From: Flavobacteriales bacterium
GTDB lineage: Bacteria > Bacteroidota > Bacteroidia > Flavobacteriales_F > PHOS-HE28
NCBI GenBank assembly: GCA_020852835.1
Contig: JADZAC010000055.1
Coordinates: 1-45,444, forward strand
Length of the DNA: 45,444 nt
Direction of reading: 5' to 3'
Part shown: positions 11,030 through 11,626 of the stretch, piece after piece
Layout of the letters: each line of letters opens with the position of its first letter
Position numbering within the stretch: the first letter of the stretch is position 1
Made by a program: the position numbers and the translations under genes
Notes under the pieces: generated by a model
Seen by the model: only the letters and a program-made list of their open reading frames with translations
What the model was told of the DNA's origin: nothing
Databases searched by the model: none

Positions 11030-11040
11030 AATGCTGAAAC

Positions 11041-11215
11041 GGGAAACGGGAAAGAGGAAACTGGAAACTGGAAACGGGAAACGGGAAACTGGAAACTGGA
11101 AACTGGAAACTGGAAACTGGAAACTGGAAACAGGAAACGGGAAACGGGAAACAGGAAACGGGAAACGGGAAACAGGAAACGGGAAACGGGAAACAGGAAA
11201 CAGGAAACGGGAAAA
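11041..11215 (+). repeat. 25-unit heptad tandem array, consensus NGGAAAC
   Basis: Twenty-five consecutive 7-bp units with no register slip: GGGAAAC, AGGAAAC and TGGAAAC, with only the second and the last units deviating inside the core. The first base of each unit varies in blocks (six consecutive TGGAAAC, then G,G,A triplets repeated), so the array itself has a higher-order G-G-A pattern. The strand is strongly purine-rich. It ends 1 bp before the ATG of the four-helix-bundle gene, where it also supplies an A/G-rich leader. It remains open in the frame of that gene (LETGNGKRETGN-type translation), so an N-terminally extended protein is possible. Confidence 0.95.
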
Positions 11216-11216
11216 A

Positions 11217-11564
11217 ATGGAGGGCCAGACGCATCGGGACTTAAAGGAACGCACGATGCAGTTTTCCGCAGCGAGCATTCGGTTCTACCAAAAGTTGCCG
11301 ATGACAACCGAGGCCCAGGTTTGCGGCAAGCAATTTCTTCGCTCGGCGACTTCAGTGGGAGCGAATACCCGATCCGCCTTCCGGGGTCGAAGTCCTAAGG
11401 AATTCAAGGCAAAGCTCGGAGTGGTGATCGAGGAAGCGGATGAATGCGGCTTCTGGCTGGAGCTCATGCAAAACACTGGCATAATTGAGGCCAAACCCGC
11501 TAATTCACTATTGCTGGAAGCAAGCGAACTTGTATCCATATTCACCACCATCGTCAAACGCTAA
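11217..11564 (+). CDS. four-helix bundle protein, 23S rRNA intervening-sequence (S23/IVP) family
   Basis: A 115-residue protein beginning MEGQTHRDLKERTMQFSAAS, with the family signatures LRSATSVGANTRSA and EFKAKLGVVIEEADECGFWLEL. These correspond to the small four-helix bundles encoded in 23S rRNA intervening sequences and to the diversity-generating-retroelement accessory protein Avd. Molecular function is unknown; nucleic-acid binding has been shown for Avd-type relatives. The start at 11217 is preferred because everything upstream is simple repeat. Base composition is visibly less GC-rich than the flanking POT genes, suggesting acquisition. Inverted heptad arrays lie on both sides. No reverse transcriptase or rRNA is nearby. 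Confidence 0.88.
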   Translation: MEGQTHRDLKERTMQFSAASIRFYQKLPMTTEAQVCGKQFLRSATSVGANTRSAFRGRSPKEFKAKLGVVIEEADECGFWLELMQNTGIIEAKPANSLLLEASELVSIFTTIVKR

Positions 11565-11570
11565 CACCAA

Positions 11571-11626
11571 CGTTTCCAGTTTCAGCTTTCAACTTTCAAC
11601 TTTCAACTTTTTCTTTTCAGCTTTCG
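11571..11626 (-). repeat. inverted heptad array, right arm
   Basis: Eight 7-bp units in register: CGTTTCC, AGTTTCA, GCTTTCA, ACTTTCA twice, ACTTTTT, CTTTTCA and GCTTTCG. Read on the minus strand they are GGAAACG, TGAAACT, TGAAAGC, TGAAAGT and so on, i.e. degenerate versions of the left array NGGAAAC. Pyrimidine-rich. The array lies between the stop of the four-helix-bundle gene and POT copy 2 and may also affect that gene's leader. Confidence 0.85.

Follow-up and report, generated by a model that had tools for sequence, protein, structure and literature searches.

An S23-family gene within inverted heptad arrays belongs to a widespread, apparently undescribed family of mobile-looking elements in operon gaps

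The window, by which we mean the whole analysed stretch of 45,444 nucleotides from a Flavobacteriales genome, contains a gene of the S23/IVP family located between two co-directional POT (PTR2) transporter genes and enclosed by two heptad arrays of opposite orientation. The features of this locus are as follows:

9485-11029, forward strand: upstream host gene, POT (PTR2) transporter 1 (PF00854)
11036-11214, forward strand: left (5') arm, NGGAAAC array of about 25 copies, directly 3' of the POT gene stop (TRF)
11217-11564, forward strand: S23/IVP-family gene encoding a four-helix bundle of Avd fold, 115 aa (PF05635, TIGR02436, AF2 model, structure matches)
11568-11620, reverse strand: right (3') arm, degenerate heptads in opposite orientation, GTTTCCAGTTTCAGCTTTCAAC... 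(TRF, lag-7 array, arm complementarity)
11642-13222, forward strand: downstream host gene, POT (PTR2) transporter 2, co-directional (PF00854)

Besides the POT transporters, a DPP IV-like peptidase is among the immediate neighbours of the element, and a longer in-frame ORF starting at 11031 was found to run through the left array into the S23 gene. The GC content of the S23 gene is 0.53, compared to 0.59-0.61 for the neighbouring genes, in agreement with the lower-GC gene between arrays described in an earlier sequence-only reading of the window. An (AG)18 dinucleotide run is also present at the contig start (window positions 1-37), possibly an assembly-edge artefact.

The left array (11036-11214) was resolved by TRF as 25.6 copies of a period-7 unit with 91% matches, within which 22 perfect NGGAAAC units form an unbroken run (11055-11208); the 25 uninterrupted units reported earlier therefore hold as a total for the array but not as an unbroken series. 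The variable base of this run reads ATTGGTTTTTTAGGAGGAGGAA, with a 21-bp G-G-A higher-order pattern at its 3' side. This pattern indicates that slippage or unequal exchange acted locally, the process by which the earlier reading had suggested that the array grew. The right array (11568-11610, 6 copies, 80% matches, consensus CAACTTT) is degenerate and in opposite orientation as previously noted, although the earlier count of about eight heptads is generous; the corresponding lag-7 array spans 11569-11620. The best arm pairing, between 11078-11124 and 11572-11618, has a local score of 17.5 (about 17.5-18), higher than at 99.9% of the 2660 positions across 413 kb that served as control placements (99.9% level = 15.5). 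Besides these two arms no period-7 array was found in the window, nor do three consecutive NGGAAAC units occur elsewhere in the genome, making the window array unique.

S23 genes that stand alone occur commonly among bacteria and have no assigned function. PF05635 was the sole family matching the window protein (57.0 bits against a cut-off of 33.8, E 2.6e-15), which was also recovered by TIGR02436 (76.5 bits against a cut-off of 24, E 1.7e-21) and shows no match to an HUH Y1 transposase (RAYT). An AlphaFold (AF2) model of the protein (pLDDT 95.5) was matched by Foldseek to 2RLD (TM 0.85-0.90) and 2GSC (TM 0.79-0.82), the latter being the S23 protein XCC0516 of Xanthomonas campestris, followed by the Avd proteins of diversity-generating retroelements (DGRs), 8UB7 and 4DWL. 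The PHROG Avd profile also matches a canonical member of the S23 family (L029). Unlike DGR Avd (BPP-1), the window element is flanked by heptad arms and has no adjoining reverse transcriptase gene. S23 has no recognised catalytic site. Purifying selection acts on the protein, with dN/dS values mostly of 0.06-0.14 in comparisons whose synonymous sites are unsaturated. A defence or phage origin was rejected, as PADLOC returned no hit and PHROG returned only Avd, for a relative.

Across the S23 loci surveyed, for which the source genome was represented by sampled stretches, the arm-gene-arm organization proved general. All five S23 genes of the source genome possess short-period inverted arms, built from five different units (GTAGNNC, GGGTTAC-like, GGGCAGN, GATCAGAN of period 8, and NGGAAAC). 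Among S23 loci of the source genome's class, 48 of 74 carry complementary arms above the 99.9% control level, defined with 220-nt flanks as the score reached by 0.1% of the 2660 control placements in 413 kb; about a third of the class loci fall below this strict threshold. The two control placements exceeding it were the window element itself and one RAYT/REP-like locus, whereas none of 304 control genes did so, confirming the expectation that inverted period-7 arrays accompany S23 genes more often than other genes. Complementary arms at p<=0.01 relative to shuffles were likewise detected in Bacteroidota (31/44 and 17/28 loci), in named genomes of other phyla (31/35), in seven further genomes (16/20, overlapping partly with the named loci) and in cyanobacteria (23/29), for a total of 118 significant loci out of 156 across taxa including Acidobacteria, Planctomycetes, Firmicutes, Proteobacteria, Patescibacteria and cyanobacteria. 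Both orthologues and paralogues of S23 are thus regularly armed, contrary to the outcome that would have told against the association. Pooled S23 flanks also display autocorrelation peaks at lags of 7, 14, 21 and 28 (0.374, 0.352, 0.349 and 0.317; 0.25-0.29 further out). The left arm is G-rich in 140 of 155 S23 loci and, since the arms are inverted repeats, G-rich strands run inward on both DNA strands. Together these loci define an element family in which an S23/Avd-fold gene is flanked on each side by an array of a short G-rich unit, usually of 7 bp, the two arrays facing inward and being complementary to each other.

Several further arrangements were encountered in this survey. At L333 and L334, successive gaps of one operon or gene cluster are filled by three to four S23 elements that diverge from one another and mostly have their own units. 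The gmd-fcl junction of the source genome contains a heptad array (L100:5764-5813), and in a gammaproteobacterial MAG (L188) an S23 element lies just upstream of an fcl-like gene, such that a gmd-fcl-type junction has been hit in distant taxa.

Comparison of loci by protein identity revealed that arm units follow the protein. Between unrelated genomic sites, similar arms are shared by 0.4-0.7% of pairs at 20-50% protein identity, rising to 1.5% at 50-60%, 12% at 60-70% and 47% at 70-80% identity. For example, two paralogs (L087 and L088) at different sites of one genome (G016) share a common GATCAGA unit, and their homology stops at the outer edges of the arrays. At one site in different species the unit can be replaced, yet the arms remain complementary within each species (12 pairs). 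Each S23 subfamily has its own unit. These patterns bear on the possibility that polymerase slippage favours heptads anywhere, with S23 genes merely occupying tolerant gaps. Slippage or unequal exchange has acted locally, as the 21-bp pattern attests, and heptamers are cited in two reports as the most frequent long simple sequence repeats of many bacteria, an abundance for which polymerase slippage has been offered as the cause (PMC4692102, PMC4679880). Under neutral slippage, however, there is no reason to expect that a single gene family should have inverted complementary arms across many phyla, or that the unit should agree with the protein subfamily; it is already disfavoured by the class arm counts, the absence of armed control genes and the identity-dependent sharing of units, and we regard it as very improbable.

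Examination of orthologous gaps among relatives identified both occupied and empty sites, as the sequence-only reading had proposed to look for. Across eight orthologous POT-POT loci, the S23 gene is present solely in the source genome, while four relatives possess a different heptad array and one (G004) is clean. The HGD-HPPD gap harbours an element in six genomes and is empty (about 25-35 bp) in four; in other genomes it retains a left array alone, a short scar, or the 3' end of the gene together with the right array. Single gene-less arrays look like scars. Neither a target-site duplication nor a precise boundary was found from empty/occupied pairs, the gap sequences being too diverged to define one, and no near-identical recent copies were found at unrelated sites.

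Beyond the armed genes, units of S23 elements were also found dispersed without any S23 gene. The GTAGNNC unit (L001) occurs in dozens of places in the source genome and the GATCAGA unit (L004) in about eight, against 0-1 hits for the reversed control patterns. Many of these sites are hairpins with loops of 12-90 nt that lack an S23 gene, and others are single arrays. Twenty sites from relatives gave a like picture of gene-less hairpins and arrays, with no S23 gene detected within 2-4 kb around them. In the source genome, 12 of 18 gene-less sites lie between co-directional genes, a share similar to that of controls (87 of 146). The units differ in their dispersal: those of L001 and L004 form dispersed gene-less hairpins resembling REPINs, while the window unit NGGAAAC has no dispersed gene-less copies in the genome. 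Where one site of a genome holds an intact S23 element of the GATCAGA type, that genome contains more GATCAGA arrays (MWU p 0.0013), in counts that include the element's own arms and a test that ignores host phylogeny. One genome (G013) is an exception, with 28 GATCAGA counts and an intact S23 gene with this unit absent at the site examined. GTAGNNC repeats occur in only some members of the genus, and common descent may thus account for some of the association between S23 and repeats.

The window itself contains a gene-less GTAGNNC mini-hairpin (40740-40793; GTTCGCAGTTCGCAGGGC ... GCCCTACGAACTACGAAC), which lies in frame within a 1166-aa ORF where the genes for the small and large subunits of methylmalonyl-CoA mutase appear to meet; it may have fused the two. 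Elsewhere in the source genome (L095:19000-20000), a RAYT/Y1-like transposase gene, named by eye, is accompanied by its own inverted REP-like repeats of the GTCGGGCCTTCGGCCCT type. The idea that the heptads derive from a RAYT of the genome itself was rejected, given that this sole RAYT-like locus in the sampled stretches (L095:19201) has unrelated REP-like repeats.

Among the known systems most similar to the window element are the intervening sequences (IVSs) of 23S rRNA genes in Leptospira and Coxiella, which similarly comprise an S23-family ORF within complementary terminal repeats and have a selfish-element character; in Coxiella the ORF is associated with a 28-bp stem and excision by RNase III (PMC4990558). 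The sequence-only reading had interpreted the window unit as a free, non-rRNA form of such an element. Its architectural part was borne out: an S23 gene lies between heptad arms whose complementarity (17.5) exceeds the control level (15.5), and scanning of the window and of other S23 loci detected no rRNA. Unlike rRNA IVSs, the elements identified here lie between protein-coding genes, as the window unit does between its two POT genes, and their arms are tandem heptads with locus-specific units; dispersed gene-less copies exist as well, and RNase III excision is a feature of the IVSs.

Acting in the transcript, such a unit would enclose the S23 ORF in a long stem formed by its paired arms, and its excision from operon mRNA by RNase III would render insertion tolerable. 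This proposal is consistent with the shared protein family and arm-ORF-arm order of the Coxiella IVS (PMC4990558), with arms that stay complementary when units differ between species at one site, and with a strong sense bias in co-directional operons (74 sense/sense vs 7 anti/anti in one set; 133 vs 29). For the GC-rich class set, strand assignments are not reliable, as the simple caller is misled by long ORFs on the antisense strand. However, a search for the wobble signature of RNA pairing was negative, with mismatches between arms showing no G.U excess (390 G.U vs 454 A.C), and RNA of the window element folds modestly better than shuffles (z -1.84). Antisense copies also exist, e.g. at Nostoc edaphicum nrdA-nrdB, the S23 loci scanned all lie outside rRNA, and the dispersed gene-less arrays are not accounted for. 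Although the architecture fits, the absence of G.U enrichment and the antisense copies leave an RNA-excised IVS unproven, and the gene-less hairpins with S23 units, which the sequence-only reading had missed, resemble REPINs more than IVSs. A transcript stem cut out in the manner of an IVS is therefore so far unsupported, and we consider this explanation unlikely.

A host-encoded role was also considered, in which an S23 ring, in the manner of TRAP, would bind tandem heptads in its own transcript and in others with that unit, each subunit contacting one heptad; the arrays would then be the RNA operators of a regulon, and S23 a host regulator and not part of a mobile element. Tracking of unit sequence with protein subfamily, tandem reiteration at a near-constant period, an Avd-like, ring-forming fold, purifying selection on S23, and the frequent position of arrays between co-directional genes and beside stop codons are all compatible with such a regulator. 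Taken alone, it leaves unexplained the complementary inverted arms, the loss of the gene with scars, the relocation of whole arm-gene-arm units, and the patchy presence among close relatives, and we judge it quite unlikely.

The closest analogy to the S23 elements is offered by REPINs and their RAYT proteins (PMC3116915). In both systems one protein gene lies within inverted copies of a repeat, which also occurs genome-wide, in the source genome for the L001 and L004 units, as gene-less hairpins and single remnants, and protein and repeat co-diversify. They differ in that the protein here is a four-helix bundle of Avd fold, whereas RAYT is a Y1/HUH transposase, and in that the repeat is a tandem heptad array, whereas the REPIN repeat is a short palindrome. 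The window locus is best read as a single representative of a large family whose members are compact (about 0.5-0.7 kb), look mobile and lie in gaps between operon genes. On balance, we consider it probable that these constitute a family of mobile S23 hairpin elements with REPIN-like gene-less derivatives, in which S23 probably recognises its heptads. In the mechanism that we consider likeliest, S23, as a pentameric, Avd-like nucleic-acid-binding ring, would recognise its own heptad hairpin, as ssDNA or RNA, and may promote the spread of hairpin copies to further gaps within operons, a role akin to that which RAYT is thought to serve for REPINs. The polymerase or recombination activity for copying would be supplied by the host or another element, and arm length and sequence might subsequently drift through slippage and exchange between arms.

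These findings also bear on the heptanucleotide repeats of bacteria, among which cyanobacterial STRRs occur in rnpB and tRNA-Leu introns. STRRs, GGGAATC and TAACTGA repeats resemble the arms described here in their 7-bp tandem units, intergenic location and proximity to stop codons. Xanthomonas GGGAATC repeats include 70 close convergent pairs (PMC4692102) and TAACTGA repeats occur in Beggiatoaceae (PMC4679880); the cited passages of these reports draw no link to S23, in contrast to the link seen here in Bacteroidota and cyanobacteria. No published link between S23 and heptads was found in the literature searched, and the family of S23 and heptad-hairpin elements, while widespread, is apparently undescribed. 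A broader proposal, which we advance tentatively as close to evenly balanced, is that these elements represent a new, bacteria-wide class of mobile element, in which each subfamily of Avd-fold S23 proteins recognises heptad hairpins of its own kind and disperses them among operon gaps, whether or not the gene travels along. On this view the rRNA IVSs form one special case, and many of the puzzling heptanucleotide repeats (STRR and GGGAATC type) are gene-less derivatives. If true, this would make the rRNA IVS a member of a far larger family. The link joins S23 genes to which no function has been assigned with heptanucleotide repeats noticed for decades without explanation, and it makes both testable: an S23 protein is predicted to bind the heptad of its own arms, and hairpins built of heptads to point to S23 genes that exist or once existed.
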